Of a stretch of 64,000 bases of DNA, positions 56,764 to 64,000 are shown piece by piece. How positions within the stretch are numbered: position 1 is the first letter of the stretch; every line of letters begins with the position of its first letter. A model generated the notes under the pieces. It did not search any database, was not told where the DNA came from, and worked only from the letters and a program-made list of their open reading frames with translations. Source of the stretch: Chloroflexota bacterium. Lineage in GTDB: Bacteria > Chloroflexota > Dehalococcoidia > Lucifugimonadales > GCA-2722455. The stretch spans positions 175,971 through 239,970 of the forward strand of contig PBMB01000009.1 in assembly GCA_002722455.1 (NCBI GenBank), read 5' to 3'. The position numbers were made by a program, and so were the translations under genes.

Positions 56764-57762
56764 ATGAAAGTTGTCATGTCAAAAATATCAAAGCAAGCAT
56801 ATTCTAAAAATTATAGCTTTGAAGAAGAATTGATTGAAACATATCCAGATATAAACTGGGTATCAGCAATTAGTGAAGAAGAACAGATAAAAGAAATTGG
56901 AGATTGTGATGTTTTCTATGGCTGGCCTTCACATAAAGTATTTCTTGCAGCTTCAGAAAAATTAAAGTGGATCCATGTACCTGGAACAGGAATTGACCGA
57001 GTCACAAAAAACAACCAGGAACTTATTGATAGTGATGTTATTCTTACAAATTGTCCTCAAGCTCATACTAAACCAATGGCGGATCATACACTAGGAATGA
57101 TTTTAAGTTTATCCCGTAAATTATGGGAAAACCGAGACCAACAACATCAACATACATGGAAAGAGGAGGGGTATGTCAAATCTGCAATGGAAAATAATAA
57201 CCCCCTTGTAGCTCTTTCGGGAACTACTTTAGGTATAGTATCTATGGGTGGTATAGGTAGGCAAATAGCACAGCGTGCAAAAGGTTTTGAGATGGATATT
57301 TATGCTGTTGATAAATACCCATCTGACCCTCCAGAAGGTGTTAGTCAAATTTGGGGACTGGATAAACTAGATGAACTTATCCAAATTTCAGACTGGCTTG
57401 TAATTACTTCTCCATATACACATGAAACAAAGGGTTTGATTAATGAAAAACACCTACATTTATTTAAACCTTCATCACATGTAATTGTTATTTCCCGTGG
57501 TGGCATCTTTGATGAAAAAGCATTATTGAAAGGACTTCAGACAAAGAAAATTAAAGGTGCAGGAATCGATGCTTTTGAAGCTGAGCCCCTTGATCCTAAA
57601 AGTCCATTGTGGGATATGCCAAATGTAATAATATCTCCACATTCTTCTTCTCATACTTATACTATGGAAATTCAGCGTAGGCAGATTTTTGCAGATAATC
57701 TTGAAAGATTTATTAAAGGTGAAAAACTTCATCACATATGTAATAAAAAAGAGGGGTTTTAA
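56764..57762 (+). CDS. D-isomer-specific 2-hydroxyacid dehydrogenase
   Basis: 332 residues of the D-2-hydroxyacid dehydrogenase family, NAD(P)-linked reduction of a 2-oxoacid. The dinucleotide loop is 'LGIVSMGGIGRQIA' (about 158). The catalytic Arg is in 'ISRGGIFDEKAL', the Glu in 'DAFEAEPLD' and the His in 'IISPHSSSHT'. GAGGT lies 9 nt before the ATG. Substrate unknown. It converges directly on the aldolase-kinase pair, so a hydroxy- or keto-sugar acid is likely (inference). Confidence 0.88.
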   Translation: MKVVMSKISKQAYSKNYSFEEELIETYPDINWVSAISEEEQIKEIGDCDVFYGWPSHKVFLAASEKLKWIHVPGTGIDRVTKNNQELIDSDVILTNCPQAHTKPMADHTLGMILSLSRKLWENRDQQHQHTWKEEGYVKSAMENNNPLVALSGTTLGIVSMGGIGRQIAQRAKGFEMDIYAVDKYPSDPPEGVSQIWGLDKLDELIQISDWLVITSPYTHETKGLINEKHLHLFKPSSHVIVISRGGIFDEKALLKGLQTKKIKGAGIDAFEAEPLDPKSPLWDMPNVIISPHSSSHTYTMEIQRRQIFADNLERFIKGEKLHHICNKKEGF

Positions 57763-58605
57763 TTAATCTTCAATTCTTCTGTACGATTCGACAAAATTCG
57801 AAGAGGATTCTTTAATAAACTCCATTTCATGAGGACCTTCAAAAAATTTCACGCCTCTTTCAATCCAAAATCTTGCCTGAGTTGTATCTGAGGATGTAGT
57901 TCCCATGGGTATGTTTTTTTTCTTACATAAATTTAGCAGATGAGACATCATTTCCACAATAGCCGGATGGTTTTTATCATCCGGGTACCCCATTTCTATC
58001 GAGAGGTCTCCTAATCCGATATATACCATATCAACTCCAGGTACATTAATTATTTCTTCTGCATTCTCACATCCTAAGTTTGTTTCAATATGAACAACTA
58101 GAGTAGTTTCATCATTTTGATCTTTAAGCCATTGGCTTCGGTGGGTCGGTTTTAAATAATCACTATTTCCATACCCTGATGCAGCAGCACGAGTGCCTGA
58201 AGGAGGATATTTGATATAACTAAGTAATTCTTCTACCTGATGTTTGTGTTCAGTTCTTGGTAGCTGAATACCTACAACTCCAGATTCAAGAAGTTTTGCG
58301 ACTTCTTGTCTTTCTAGGTCTGGAGTTTTTGCAATGACTGGTAATCCATTGTCTCTTGCTGATAAAACTGTATCTGAAAACCTTGTCATATCGAAATATG
58401 CATGTTCATATTCAATATAGACAAAATCAAATCCAGCTTGTTGATATATTTTTATTAAAGATGGTCTTGCATATTCAGTTAGTGTTGCACCAATTAGTAA
58501 GTCCCCATTCTTTAGTCTATTTTTGAGATATCTACCAGGGCCACCTTGTGGATACATTGCATTAATTCGTTCGTTGGCATTTTGTGCGAAAAGGGATTTA
58601 GGCAT
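57763..58605 (-). CDS. HpcH/HpaI-family aldolase
   Basis: A class II (metal-dependent) aldolase of 280 residues, related to 2-keto-3-deoxy-sugar-acid and 4-hydroxy-2-oxo-heptanedioate aldolases. Seen: 'DFVYIEYEHAYFD' (about 62-74), 'VVGIQLPRTEHK' and 'TNLGCENAEEIINVPGVDMVYIGLGDLSIEMG'. Metal ligands are the Glu in 'IETNLG' and the Asp in 'GLGDLS'. The start is ATG 58605 with AAGGAGG 5 nt upstream; the ORF-track start lies before it. It overlaps the kinase gene by 8 nt. Together they would phosphorylate and split a keto-deoxy acid. Confidence 0.88.
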   Translation of the reverse strand: MPKSLFAQNANERINAMYPQGGPGRYLKNRLKNGDLLIGATLTEYARPSLIKIYQQAGFDFVYIEYEHAYFDMTRFSDTVLSARDNGLPVIAKTPDLERQEVAKLLESGVVGIQLPRTEHKHQVEELLSYIKYPPSGTRAAASGYGNSDYLKPTHRSQWLKDQNDETTLVVHIETNLGCENAEEIINVPGVDMVYIGLGDLSIEMGYPDDKNHPAIVEMMSHLLNLCKKKNIPMGTTSSDTTQARFWIERGVKFFEGPHEMEFIKESSSNFVESYRRIED

Positions 58606-59536
58606 CGATTCCTCCTTGTTCAATTATTACTTTAGAAAGATGTTTTTGTATTTCTATAGATTCTGGTTGAGAAGTGATACTTCTTCCTCCGATCTTAATA
58701 CCTGCAGCAGTTGTTGACCATTTCAGTGCTTCTTTTATTTCAATATTGTTATTTATGCAATGTAAATATGTCCCTACGAATGTATCTCCGGCACCAACAA
58801 CGTCTATTATTCCATATGGAGCTATCGATGACATTGTATATTTTTTATTTTCTACATACGCGACAGCACCTTTTTCTCCGCATTTTAGTATGACTGTAGG
58901 AATATGCCATTTTTTAAAATAATCATAGACATCATCAGGATCTGTAATTCCAAGCAATGTCTCAGTATCTCCAGGATGGGATGGGAATATCATGTCAGTG
59001 TATTCAAGAATTTCCTCCATAGCATATTTTGCATCTGAAGCATGTTTCCACAAATATGGACGGAAATTCGGGTCGTATGATACTAGTAAGTTATGAGATT
59101 TAGCTAATTTTACTGCTTCGAGTACAGCTGTTTTACAACTTTGAGAAATACCTTGAGATATTCCACTTATATGTAATATTTTAGATTGTTTTATATATTC
59201 CTCATCGATGTCTTTTTTATTAATTGTACTTGCTACGCTATTAGATCGATACATACCTATAACAGAATTTTCTGAATAGATTTCTAGGGCATTAAATCCA
59301 CGGCATTGCTGTACATGGCTAGTATCTATTCCTAATTCATTCCAGGACTTAATCAAGAAATCACCTATGGGGTCGTCACTAACCCTACTTATAAACCCGC
59401 AATGACTACCTAGTAGACTACCCATAGTCAATACATTTAATGCATCGCCTGAAAAAGTTTTCCCATAAGGACTATTGGGATTTTGAGGTTTAATGAATTC
59501 AATGAAACATTCACCTATAGATATGATATCTGGCAT
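58598..59536 (-). CDS. PfkB-family sugar kinase, 2-keto-3-deoxygluconate kinase-like
   Basis: 312 residues of the ribokinase fold. 'YDPNFRPYLW' (about 172-181) is typical of KDG kinases, and the catalytic 'DVVGAGDTFVGTYL' with its Asp lies near 245. The N-terminal 'GECFIEFI' and 'SGDALNVLTMGSLLG' bind the sugar. Substrate is inferred from the motifs and the aldolase partner. First gene of a two-gene unit, divergent from the PhyH gene. Confidence 0.88.
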   Translation of the reverse strand: MPDIISIGECFIEFIKPQNPNSPYGKTFSGDALNVLTMGSLLGSHCGFISRVSDDPIGDFLIKSWNELGIDTSHVQQCRGFNALEIYSENSVIGMYRSNSVASTINKKDIDEEYIKQSKILHISGISQGISQSCKTAVLEAVKLAKSHNLLVSYDPNFRPYLWKHASDAKYAMEEILEYTDMIFPSHPGDTETLLGITDPDDVYDYFKKWHIPTVILKCGEKGAVAYVENKKYTMSSIAPYGIIDVVGAGDTFVGTYLHCINNNIEIKEALKWSTTAAGIKIGGRSITSQPESIEIQKHLSKVIIEQGGIDA

Positions 59537-59618: not shown

Positions 59619-60398
59619 ATGTTATCGAAAGAGCAAGTGACACATTTTGAGACTTTTGGGTTTTTGGTTTTACGTAATGTTTTAAGTCGTGATGAAGTAG
59701 ATATTATGATCAAAGAGTCTGAAGAAATATTTTCTGAATTAAGACAAGGGAAGCCATTTACTGCTCAGGAGAGGGAAGCTGTACAGCCATTTTTTGAACG
59801 GAAACCATTTCTACATTCTTTACTTGCTGATGATAGGATATATTCTATAGGTGAAAGCATATTAGGATCCGATTTTATGCTTGTTGTAACTGAAGGTAAT
59901 TTACATGTTGGTGATACTCCATGGCATGCAGGAGAAGAAGCTCGAGTATTAAGAACTGTAAAAATTGGATTTTACTTGGAACCACTGACAATAAATACTG
60001 GAAGTCTTAGAGTTATACCAGGCACACATAAAATATCTTCGCCTGATTACTTCTCTATTCTAAAGACAGCAAATAAAAATTCTGATTTTATGCCCTTTGG
60101 TGTATCTCCGAAAGAAATTCCATCCTATCCTATACAAAGTGATCCAGGAGATTTAATTGTATTTACAGAAAGTGTTGTTCATGCTGCATTTGGAGGTAGA
60201 GATGGGAGACATCAGCATGCAATCAATTTTTGTGAGTATCCGAAAAGTGAAGAGTTAATTGCATTTACTAAGGATTGGTATAGTAGAACGGTTAATATTT
60301 TTAGGCCACCAATATCAAATATTAACAGCGACAATGCTAGGTTAAGACGGATGAGTGAGGGGTGGCTACAGCTAGGATTTGAACCTGTAAATATCTGA
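59619..60398 (+). CDS. Phytanoyl-CoA dioxygenase (PhyH)-family protein with HxG in the iron site
   Basis: 259 residues of the PhyH group of non-haem Fe(II)/2-oxoglutarate enzymes. The family segments 'GDTPWH', 'IGFYLEPLTINTGSLRVIPGTHK' and 'ESVVHAAFGGRDGRHQHAINF' are clear; the second His is in 'VVHAAF' and an Arg for 2-oxoglutarate follows. The first metal motif, normally WHxD, reads 'WHAGEE', so the carboxylate ligand is missing. In SyrB2 and WelO5 type halogenases the same Asp is Ala or Gly to make room for chloride. An inactive or altered oxygenase is equally possible. AAAGGA lies 9 nt before the ATG. Confidence 0.85.
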   Translation: MLSKEQVTHFETFGFLVLRNVLSRDEVDIMIKESEEIFSELRQGKPFTAQEREAVQPFFERKPFLHSLLADDRIYSIGESILGSDFMLVVTEGNLHVGDTPWHAGEEARVLRTVKIGFYLEPLTINTGSLRVIPGTHKISSPDYFSILKTANKNSDFMPFGVSPKEIPSYPIQSDPGDLIVFTESVVHAAFGGRDGRHQHAINFCEYPKSEELIAFTKDWYSRTVNIFRPPISNINSDNARLRRMSEGWLQLGFEPVNI

Positions 60399-60585: not shown

Positions 60586-61662
60586 TTACTCTAATTCTTT
60601 TGCTTTTGCACGATCGGCTTTAGCTTTCTCGTGCTCTCCTAGTTCTTCGTAAATATCAGCTCTGTATCTATATGTATTAGAAAGGAGACCATAAGGATTA
60701 TTAGGATTCAGCTCTATTGCCTTACTGTAATCTTCTATTGCTTTGTCGTAGTTTCTTAATTTTCCGTACATATAACCTCTGTTGTGATATGCAGTAGCAT
60801 TATTAGGATTCAGCTCTATTCCCTTACTGTAATCTTCTATTGATTTCTCGTACTCTCCTAAGTTATAGTAACTAAAACCTCTGTTGTTATACGCACGAGC
60901 ATAGTTGGGATCGAGCCTGATGGCCTCTGTGTAATCCTCTATGGCCTCTTCATATTGACCTAGGAGAAAATAAAGAAAACCTCTTTCATTGAAGTTTTTA
61001 TGATCACTTGGGTTATTATAGATGTCTACGTTCCAGTACGATATGGCTTTCTCATATTCTCCTGCATCTTGGTACTCGCCTTTCTCTATTGGGTAAAAAA
61101 GAATAAATAAAATCCATACCACCCACATAAAGAGGGAAAATATCAGCATAAATATCCATGCCAGTATATGACCCTCGTGGATATATTTGGATAGTGGCAT
61201 ATGAATACGATGTATTTTTCTTCCTAGAAGTAATGCTAATGATAACAATAGAAATAAAACGTTTACCGCTCCCCATATTAAGACAAAGCGTACATCTCCA
61301 CCTCTGTAACGCAATACGTTATCTATCTCCCAAGGCATAGTAAGGGCTGGACTAACACTAGGGGGTGATACTGGCTTTGGTAGTGGTGTAGGTGTCGGTA
61401 GTGGAGTAGCAGTAGGAGTTGGTGTGGGTTGCACCTTATTTGCCTCAGCGTCTCTTGCCTTTTTAAGTTCAGGATCAGTGGCAACATGACAAATAGTTAA
61501 AAATAAAACTAGAATGACTCCGCCGACCAATAACTTTACAAGATCCATTAAGCCATCACTATTGAGATATCGCCTGTCTGGTGTACCGTCTTTTTTAAAG
61601 TGTGTAGTCTTGAAAAGAGATACAACTAACACTACGATTACTATGCCTAAGAGAATTTCCAT
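60586..61662 (-). CDS. Membrane protein with C-terminal TPR repeats
   Basis: 358 residues. There are about four membrane segments: an N-terminal one, 'LVKLLVGGVILVLFLTICHV', 'FVLIWGAVNVLFLLLSLALLL' and 'ILAWIFMLIFSLFMWVVWILFILF'. Between the second and third lies a 'PTPTPTATPLPTPTPLP' linker. About five TPR units follow ('AIEDYTEAIRLDPNYARAYNNRG' type), ending in 'KAKADRAKAKELE'. The tail is almost identical to that of the next TPR gene, so they are paralogues in part. A protein-interaction role in the membrane is likely; nothing more specific can be said. Confidence 0.75.
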   Translation of the reverse strand: MEILLGIVIVVLVVSLFKTTHFKKDGTPDRRYLNSDGLMDLVKLLVGGVILVLFLTICHVATDPELKKARDAEANKVQPTPTPTATPLPTPTPLPKPVSPPSVSPALTMPWEIDNVLRYRGGDVRFVLIWGAVNVLFLLLSLALLLGRKIHRIHMPLSKYIHEGHILAWIFMLIFSLFMWVVWILFILFYPIEKGEYQDAGEYEKAISYWNVDIYNNPSDHKNFNERGFLYFLLGQYEEAIEDYTEAIRLDPNYARAYNNRGFSYYNLGEYEKSIEDYSKGIELNPNNATAYHNRGYMYGKLRNYDKAIEDYSKAIELNPNNPYGLLSNTYRYRADIYEELGEHEKAKADRAKAKELE

Positions 61663-61860: not shown

Positions 61861-64000
61861 TTACTCTAATTCTTTTGCTTTTACACGATCGGCTTTAGCT
61901 TTCTGATCTTCTCCTAATTTTTCGTAACAATTAGCTCTGTGGCGATATACATGAGGAGGGCATAAATATTCTTCAAATGTAGAGTACTTGGGATAAATCT
62001 CTATTATTGCTGTGTAATCATCTATAGCTTTTTTATAATCAAGTGCTTTAAGTCTAGGCTCTTCATCAGAAGATTCATATCCGCCATGAGATAGAATAGC
62101 TGACCTCGCAAAGTCGCAATAGATTTCAGCTCTATTAGCATATGCTACATGGAGGTATTCAATTTGGGTTCTTTTTTCTATGTACTGAAGATGTTGATTG
62201 GGCTTACGGTCTAGTTCTTCTAAGATGTTTTTATGGCGTCTTATTTCTTTTGTGTAACGGGCTGTTTCCATTTCTCTTTTACATTGACATAGTTGTCTTT
62301 TGGTGAAATTAATGATTTTAGGTTGATCTTTAGGAAGTTTTACGATAGCCATCCTGTAAGAGTATATGGCGTTCTCGTATAGTGTTACATCATTACTATA
62401 CTCTCCTAATTCTCTGTAACAAAGAGCTCTGTTGAAATATGCCTTAGCGTACTTGGGGTCGAGACTTATGGCCTGACTGTAACTCTTTAAAGCTTTTTCA
62501 TAAAAAACTTCATGAGCAATCATTTTTTCTTCTTCTTTTTCTTTTTTGCCTAACTTACCGTAACTAACACCTCTGAAGAAATATGCATCAGATAATAGTT
62601 TTACATCATTACCAATTACTAGATCTTTAGCTACAGATAAACCGCCGTCAGTTTTAAGTGATCCATCGGTAGCTATATATGCATCAGCGTACTTAGGATT
62701 GAGTAATATTACCTTGTTATAATCTTCTATGGCTTTCTCGTGCTGTCCTAACTCACAGTAACTAAGACCTCTGTTGTTATATGCTTTAGAGTAATTGGGG
62801 TCGATCTTTATGGTCTCGCTGTATTCATCTATGGCTTCCTCATGTTTTCCTAACTTACCGTAACTAACACCTCTGAAGAAATTGGTGTCTGCACGATCGG
62901 CTTTGGCTTCCTCATGTTTTCCTAACTTACCGTAACTAAAACCTCTGTTGTTATATGCATCAGCGTAATTGGGATTGAGCTTTATGGCCTCGCTGTATTC
63001 ATCTATGGCTTCCTCATGTTTTCCTAACTTACCGTAACTAAGACCTCTGTTGAAATTGGTGTGTGCACGATCGGCTTTGGCTTCCTCATGTTTTCCTAAC
63101 TTACCGTAACTAACACCTCTGTTGAAATATGCATTAGTGTAATTGGGGTCGATCTTTATGGTCTCGCTGTATTCATCTATCGCTTCCTCATGTTTTCCTA
63201 ACTTACTGTAACTAACACCTCTGAAGAAATTGGTGTGTGCACGATCGGCTTTGGCTTCCTCATGTTTTCCTAACTTACCGTAACTAAGACCTCTGTTGTT
63301 ATATGCACCAGCGTCATCAGGCTTGAGCTCTATAGCCTTACTGTAATCTTCTATGGCTTTCTCGTGCTCCCCTAATTTACTGTAACAAAGAGCTCTGTTG
63401 AAATATGCATTAATGTACTTGGGATAGAGCAATATTGCCTTGTTATAATCTTCTATAGCTTTCTCATCTTCTCCTAATTTACTGTAACAAAGAGCTCTGT
63501 TGAAATATGCACCAGAGTAATCAGGCTTCAGCTCGATATATTTGCTGTAATCTTCAATGGCTTTCTCATCTTCTCCTAATTTACTGTAACAAAGAGCTCT
63601 GTTGAAATATGCCTTAGCGTACTTGGGGTCGATCTCTGTAGCTTTTGTGTAACTATCTATAGCTTTTTGATCTTCTTCCAATTTTTCGTAAGTTTTGCCT
63701 CTGTCAAAATGTTCATCAGCACTATAATGAATATCAATGGGCTCAGGATCAGATTTATAGTTGCTTGTTTTACTTGTCTTTGAAGATAAAGAATCATGCC
63801 AGTTTACAGAACTCTTATTTAAATCAGAATAGAAAAGGGTTTGCACAGGTTTGCCACTTTGCTTTTGAATATGTATCCTTGCATTTTCAGATAGATTGCC
63901 AACAGATATAAGTAATCGCACTCCAAATTCTTCTCTTCCTGATAGACTAATAAAACCTTGTATTTCATCTAGTGGTACTTGTGTGTCAATATAGCACTTT
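61861..64000 (-). CDS. Large TPR protein with an N-terminal restriction-endonuclease-like domain, 5' partial
   Basis: The frame is open to the right window edge, so the GTG at 63921 is not a proven start; at least 712 residues are encoded. The first visible residues read 'KCYIDTQVPLDEIQGF', then 'RLLISVGNLSENARIHIQKQ' and 'LFYSDLNKSSVNW'. This is the order of the last part of Mrr/COG4889-type nuclease domains, where QxKCY holds the catalytic Lys and a '..DL..s.vdW' strand ends the domain. A long TPR array follows (about 12 or more units). Part of it is a 58-residue super-repeat of one full and one shortened unit. The C-terminal tail 'KAKADRVKAKELE' matches the neighbouring TPR protein. A nuclease-TPR fusion could be a defence or stress sensor (inference). 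Confidence 0.7.
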   Translation of the reverse strand, partial: KCYIDTQVPLDEIQGFISLSGREEFGVRLLISVGNLSENARIHIQKQSGKPVQTLFYSDLNKSSVNWHDSLSSKTSKTSNYKSDPEPIDIHYSADEHFDRGKTYEKLEEDQKAIDSYTKATEIDPKYAKAYFNRALCYSKLGEDEKAIEDYSKYIELKPDYSGAYFNRALCYSKLGEDEKAIEDYNKAILLYPKYINAYFNRALCYSKLGEHEKAIEDYSKAIELKPDDAGAYNNRGLSYGKLGKHEEAKADRAHTNFFRGVSYSKLGKHEEAIDEYSETIKIDPNYTNAYFNRGVSYGKLGKHEEAKADRAHTNFNRGLSYGKLGKHEEAIDEYSEAIKLNPNYADAYNNRGFSYGKLGKHEEAKADRADTNFFRGVSYGKLGKHEEAIDEYSETIKIDPNYSKAYNNRGLSYCELGQHEKAIEDYNKVILLNPKYADAYIATDGSLKTDGGLSVAKDLVIGNDVKLLSDAYFFRGVSYGKLGKKEKEEEKMIAHEVFYEKALKSYSQAISLDPKYAKAYFNRALCYRELGEYSNDVTLYENAIYSYRMAIVKLPKDQPKIINFTKRQLCQCKREMETARYTKEIRRHKNILEELDRKPNQHLQYIEKRTQIEYLHVAYANRAEIYCDFARSAILSHGGYESSDEEPRLKALDYKKAIDDYTAIIEIYPKYSTFEEYLCPPHVYRHRANCYEKLGEDQKAKADRVKAKELE
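62833..63300 (-). repeat. 174-bp super-repeat in the TPR array
   Basis: The 22-mer GGCTTCCTCATGTTTTCCTAAC recurs at about 62833, 62905, 63007, 63079, 63181 (one-base variant) and 63253, spaced alternately 72 and 102 bp. The unit is thus 174 bp (58 codons: a 34-residue TPR and a 24-residue shortened unit), present about three times with few differences. Recent duplication by unequal exchange is likely. Confidence 0.85.

Follow-up and report, generated by a model that had tools for sequence, protein, structure and literature searches.

What does an iron/2-oxoglutarate (Fe/2OG) oxygenase-like protein do when the carboxylate of its iron-binding triad is absent? This question is raised by a PhyH-family gene in the 64,000-nucleotide stretch of Chloroflexota DNA analysed here (the window), in which the 2-His-1-carboxylate HxD...H triad is incomplete: both histidines are kept, yet residues 103-105 read HAG. 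A sequence-only reading of the window had seen in this motif a halogenase-like iron site, while allowing that the enzyme might be dead. The gene is:

59619..60398, + strand: PhyH-family (PF05721) Fe/2OG oxygenase-like protein, ATG start, 259 amino acids, identified by its Pfam match

PhyH was the only family returned by a Pfam search of the 259-residue product, which passed the gathering score (E = 6.8e-12; 46.5 bits, where 22 are needed). The closest PDB folds to its AlphaFold2 model (pLDDT 94.2, pTM 0.91) were HygX, SnoN/SnoK, EctD and human phytanoyl-CoA hydroxylase (PHYH), and the best PDB sequence match was EctD (3.1e-15). Those close relatives that carry names come from metagenome-assembled genomes (MAGs) of SAR202 and other Chloroflexi, from which we infer that this marine genome belongs to the SAR202 group. 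PhyH genes of SAR202 have been linked in the literature to a possible role in branched-chain alkane oxidation (PMC5395668). A search for viral homologues of the protein found none.

Residues 98-107 read GDTPWHAGEE, which places Gly105 at the HxD Asp position. The residues of interest, with their conservation inside and outside the Asp-less clade described below, are:

59925..59927, + strand: His103, first iron ligand; invariant in the clade and outside it
59931..59933, + strand: Gly105, where the Asp ligand would stand; variable in the clade (G, A, P, S, I, R or D), 103/103 Asp outside it
59934..59939, + strand: Glu106-Glu107 of HAGEE; unconserved, a replacement-ligand role unlikely
59961..59963, + strand: Lys115, family-conserved; 26 K and 2 R in the clade, K in 103/103 outside
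60168..60170, + strand: Glu184, four residues before the distal His, proposed compensating carboxylate; 28/28 in the clade and 2/103 outside
60180..60182, + strand: His188, distal iron ligand; 28/28 in the clade
60207..60209, + strand: Arg197, which we take from knowledge of the family to be the 2OG-binding Arg after the distal His; 28/28 in the clade, 101/103 outside (the other two are gaps)

The Asp is truly missing, since three paralogues in the same genome (38-39% identical to the window protein) all read HSD and all 103 homologues outside the clade carry Asp. The sequence-only reading was thus right that the Asp ligand is absent from its GDTPWH context while the second His and the Arg are retained. 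EctD and other HxD enzymes of PF05721 share the Pfam family, the fold and the 2OG Arg with the window protein, but they keep the Asp ligand, and the EctD alignment shows no acid four residues before the distal His (position -4). Against the ectoine hydroxylase model the window protein scored 34.9 bits, where the cut-off is 336.5.

We aligned 131 homologues drawn from genome and contig searches and found the Glu184 position occupied by Glu in 24/24 Asp-less sequences, as compared with 6/107 of those with Asp, four of these six lying inside the clade. A maximum-likelihood tree built on 83 rows united all 24 that lack Asp with four reading HGD in a single 28-row clade (support 98/91) whose deepest branches are Asp-less. 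On this phylogeny, the Asp loss is placed at the base of one PhyH clade and is not a private mutation of the window protein. The closest homologues in sister genomes of the order (45-57% identity) read HGP, HGG, HGA and HGD, among other variants.

Clade members come nearly all from SAR202-group Chloroflexi, with the addition of one on a Poribacteria contig (L061) that is 49% identical to the window protein and suggests interphylum transfer. Strong profile matches, at the score used, occurred in 10/250 genomes of the order, some of them outside the clade, and in this Poribacterium; samples of the class (393 genomes) and the phylum (399 genomes) added no further genome with a strong match. When 247 genomes of the order were scanned for GDTxWHx[G/A], all matches in a PhyH frame were clade members and all had the Glu. 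One SAR202-group genome of approximately 1.9 Mb (G002) holds about eleven divergent clade copies, one of them reading HGD, at the following loci:

G002 clade copies: L007, L015, L021, L026, L030, L055, L056, L057, L071, L138, L141

One clade member is broken near its C-terminus by an in-frame TAG in one MAG (L050 / L063), its orthologues being intact. On a Verrucomicrobia contig (L102), several PhyH-like genes lie within about 10 kb, two of which have both HxD and Glu at -4. Our literature searches turned up no description of this Asp-less clade.

Building a tree of close homologues, as the sequence-only reading had proposed, gave a divided answer to whether HxG is conserved: absence of Asp is common to the nearest relatives, but the Gly is not conserved, residue 105 being G in 13, D in 4, A in 4, P in 3, S in 2, R in 1 and I in 1 of the 28 members. 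The HxG label likewise describes the window sequence itself but not its relatives, which read H-G-x with a variable final position. Gly stands one residue before the old Asp position (residue 104) in 26/28 members and is replaced by Ala in the window protein, so that the HxG seen here arises by chance within an H-G-x family. Even orthologues differ at residue 105, with HGD exchanged for HGG at 97.7% identity and HGP for HGS at 88%, while dN/dS in the clade stays at 0.04-0.13, a sign of strong purifying selection; position 105 is therefore free, but the protein is not.

Against this background, His103, Glu184, His188 and Arg197 were each present in 28/28 clade members, whereas the loop after the first His (residues 106-110) was variable. 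After removal of rows more than 80% identical, Glu184 was found in 21/21 rows of the clade (mean identity 45%) versus 2/81 outside, and the sole comparably diagnostic position was Gly104. Both Asp and Glu are present in four clade members. Since the swap is single on the tree, the correlation between Asp and Glu within PhyH reflects one origin followed by long retention, rather than repeated evolution.

Other acidic residues were considered as replacements for the lost ligand. The Glu of HAGEE, which the sequence-only reading had named as the iron ligand that would count against its proposal, was rejected as unlikely, since residues 106 and 107 vary among clade members. An acid six residues before Lys115 is present in 19/28 members, but the window protein has Arg there, and at Glu92 of an EGN motif the canonical relatives are also acidic (Asp), while some clade members have Q, G or S.

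A natural parallel for the Glu184 arrangement exists in human AspH, which has an HxG motif and only two His as iron ligands, as the window protein has HAG and both His. In PDB chain sequences, AspH reads H679-T-G681 and F719-D-D721-S-F-E-H725, such that Asp721 lies four residues before the distal His, and the window protein reads F182-T-E184-S-V-V-H188. The two thus share F-x-[D/E]-S-x-x-H with an acid at -4, Glu in the window protein and Asp in AspH. Asp721 hydrogen-bonds to and stabilises a water (W1) in the vacated carboxylate site, the D721A variant is much less active, isothiocyanate is unable to bind at the vacated ligand site, and no substrate halogenation was seen (PMC13168262; PMC6817910); the water kept there is considered an obstacle to halide (PMC13168262).

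The coupling between Asp loss and the acid at -4 recurs in the family of AspH and its bacterial relatives (PF05118, Asp_Arg_Hydrox), a different Pfam family from that of the window protein. Among PF05118 homologues (the human protein together with bacterial, plasmid, phage and viral-contig sequences), the acid was present in 20/20 readable non-HxD rows and in 2/7 HxD rows, one further row being unreadable at -4 (Fisher p = 0.0012, counting the unreadable row as a mismatch and ignoring relatedness). A sign test was precluded because the tree gives between two (supported) and four independent pairs. One AspH-family protein, from Aulosira laxa (L164), reads YFG where AspH has HTG; its first His ligand is also replaced, and it is possibly a natural single-His variant.

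The window protein was not placed in PF05118: its Pfam match is to PhyH only, and comparison of the PhyH-clade and AspH profiles (hhalign) gave a non-significant probability of 0.2%, although the alignment nonetheless pairs E184 with D721. As judged from these comparisons, the resemblance to AspH is one of site and not of family membership, and it looks as though an AspH-like iron site evolved separately, and naturally, inside the PhyH family. A two-His site of the HxG type is also found in the D201G variant of FIH, which keeps some hydroxylase activity (PMC10947486; PMC6817910), but this is a single engineered substitution, not a family that has naturally acquired a residue to compensate.

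Taken with the AspH analogy, the conservation pattern leads us to favour, with a probability of roughly 60%, a working two-His Fe/2OG oxygenase that relies on Glu184 to make up for the missing Asp and that probably yields a hydroxylated product. Iron would be held by His103 and His188 only, and the role of the Asp would pass to Glu184, which by analogy would sit near the iron on the turn preceding the strand of the distal His. There, it would most likely hold a water in the vacated iron site, as Asp721 does in AspH, and O2 would be activated with 2OG as in AspH, with hydroxylation a likelier outcome than halogenation. We consider a hydroxylase likelier than a chlorinating or dead enzyme because loss of the Asp is coupled to a strictly kept Glu at the spot of the AspH acid.

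A related arrangement, in which Glu184, one methylene longer than Asp, itself binds the iron, would amount to moving the carboxylate from the HxD strand to give a relocated 2-His-1-Glu triad (H...E-x3-H). To our knowledge, no characterised 2OG oxygenase has such a triad, and we regard it as an unlikely variant, though one to be kept in view. Somewhat less probable is a role for Glu184 in binding substrate or a structural partner, unrelated to the lost Asp, in which case two His and ordinary water would serve the iron, as they do in FIH D201G. Such a role would fit the placement of Glu184 next to the active site, in a turn, when its register is taken from AspH and EctD, and a swap that arose only once may owe its coincidence to history; yet every Asp-less row has Glu184 while the 106-110 loop varies, and the same pairing is found in AspH and its relatives, a separate family of known structure.

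The halogenase proposal, under which chloride would occupy the empty position on the iron and a chlorinated or brominated product would form, draws on the HxG/A motif of known 2OG halogenases, which the window protein matches, on the halide supplied by sea water, and on the Gly or Ala at the Asp position in 17/24 Asp-less members (13 G, 4 A). Like the window protein, SyrB2, CytC3 and HxG nucleotide halogenases such as AdaV lack the Asp ligand and keep two His, and the clade profile matches SyrB2 (0.0033) and CytC3 (0.0035) distantly in sequence. The clade differs from these enzymes in its conserved Glu at -4 and in a position that is not limited to Gly or Ala, since Pro, Ser, Ile, Arg and Asp are found there too, even between close orthologues. 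It also falls far below the family cut-off, the window protein reaching 13.8 bits on the chlorinating-enzyme model TIGR01762 where 226.3 are needed; a search for this family in 389 Chloroflexota genomes gave 0 matches, but its control matched nowhere either, and we place no weight on it. Moreover, a conserved carboxylate adjoining the would-be halide site should disfavour an anion, and AspH, with an acid at the same place, has HxG and is reportedly non-halogenating. The step from HxG to halogenase in the sequence-only reading is therefore weakened by the missing family match, the lack of Gly/Ala conservation and the carboxylate beside the would-be halide site, and we judge the proposal disfavoured, with a low but real probability.

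A dead or non-catalytic member, keeping its fold as a binding protein, appears marginally less probable again. The canonical ligand is indeed absent, and the D414A and D414G variants of prolyl 4-hydroxylase are inactive, supporting neither hydroxylation nor halogenation (PMC2767507), a result that also speaks against a halogenase. However, FIH D201G and AspH indicate that two His can suffice. The clade is under purifying selection, its two His and its 2OG Arg are invariant (28/28), and it has been duplicated to about eleven copies in G002, all of which makes the dead-enzyme alternative raised by the sequence-only reading unlikely.

The genes adjoining the PhyH gene in the window were identified as follows:

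58598..59536, - strand: PfkB sugar kinase, divergent neighbour, its start codon 82 bp from that of the PhyH gene
57763..58623, - strand: HpcH/HpaI-type aldolase, by domain search
56764..57762, + strand: D-2-hydroxyacid dehydrogenase, by domain search

Downstream, two genes (60586-61662 and 61861-63921, - strand) carry many tetratricopeptide-like repeats, the second being highly repetitive internally. The divergent PfkB-PhyH pair recurs in related genomes (L064 and L034), and enolase-family, DHDPS-type and PfkB genes adjoin several clade members. These neighbours hint at sugar-acid catabolism as the context, but the hint is not clade-specific: DHDPS-type genes are about equally common near same-genome HxD paralogues, and we therefore claim no specific pathway.

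Searches of genomes for halogenases select 2OG enzymes by their HxG/A motif, and this clade is a case in which that motif, taken by itself, can mislead. Based on the Asp-less PhyH clade and the AspH family, we suggest a second filter, whereby an acid at -4 from the distal His would point to an AspH-like hydroxylase. The residues found naturally at the former ligand site (G, A, P, S, I, R and D) offer enough variety to probe what controls hydroxylation versus halogenation.
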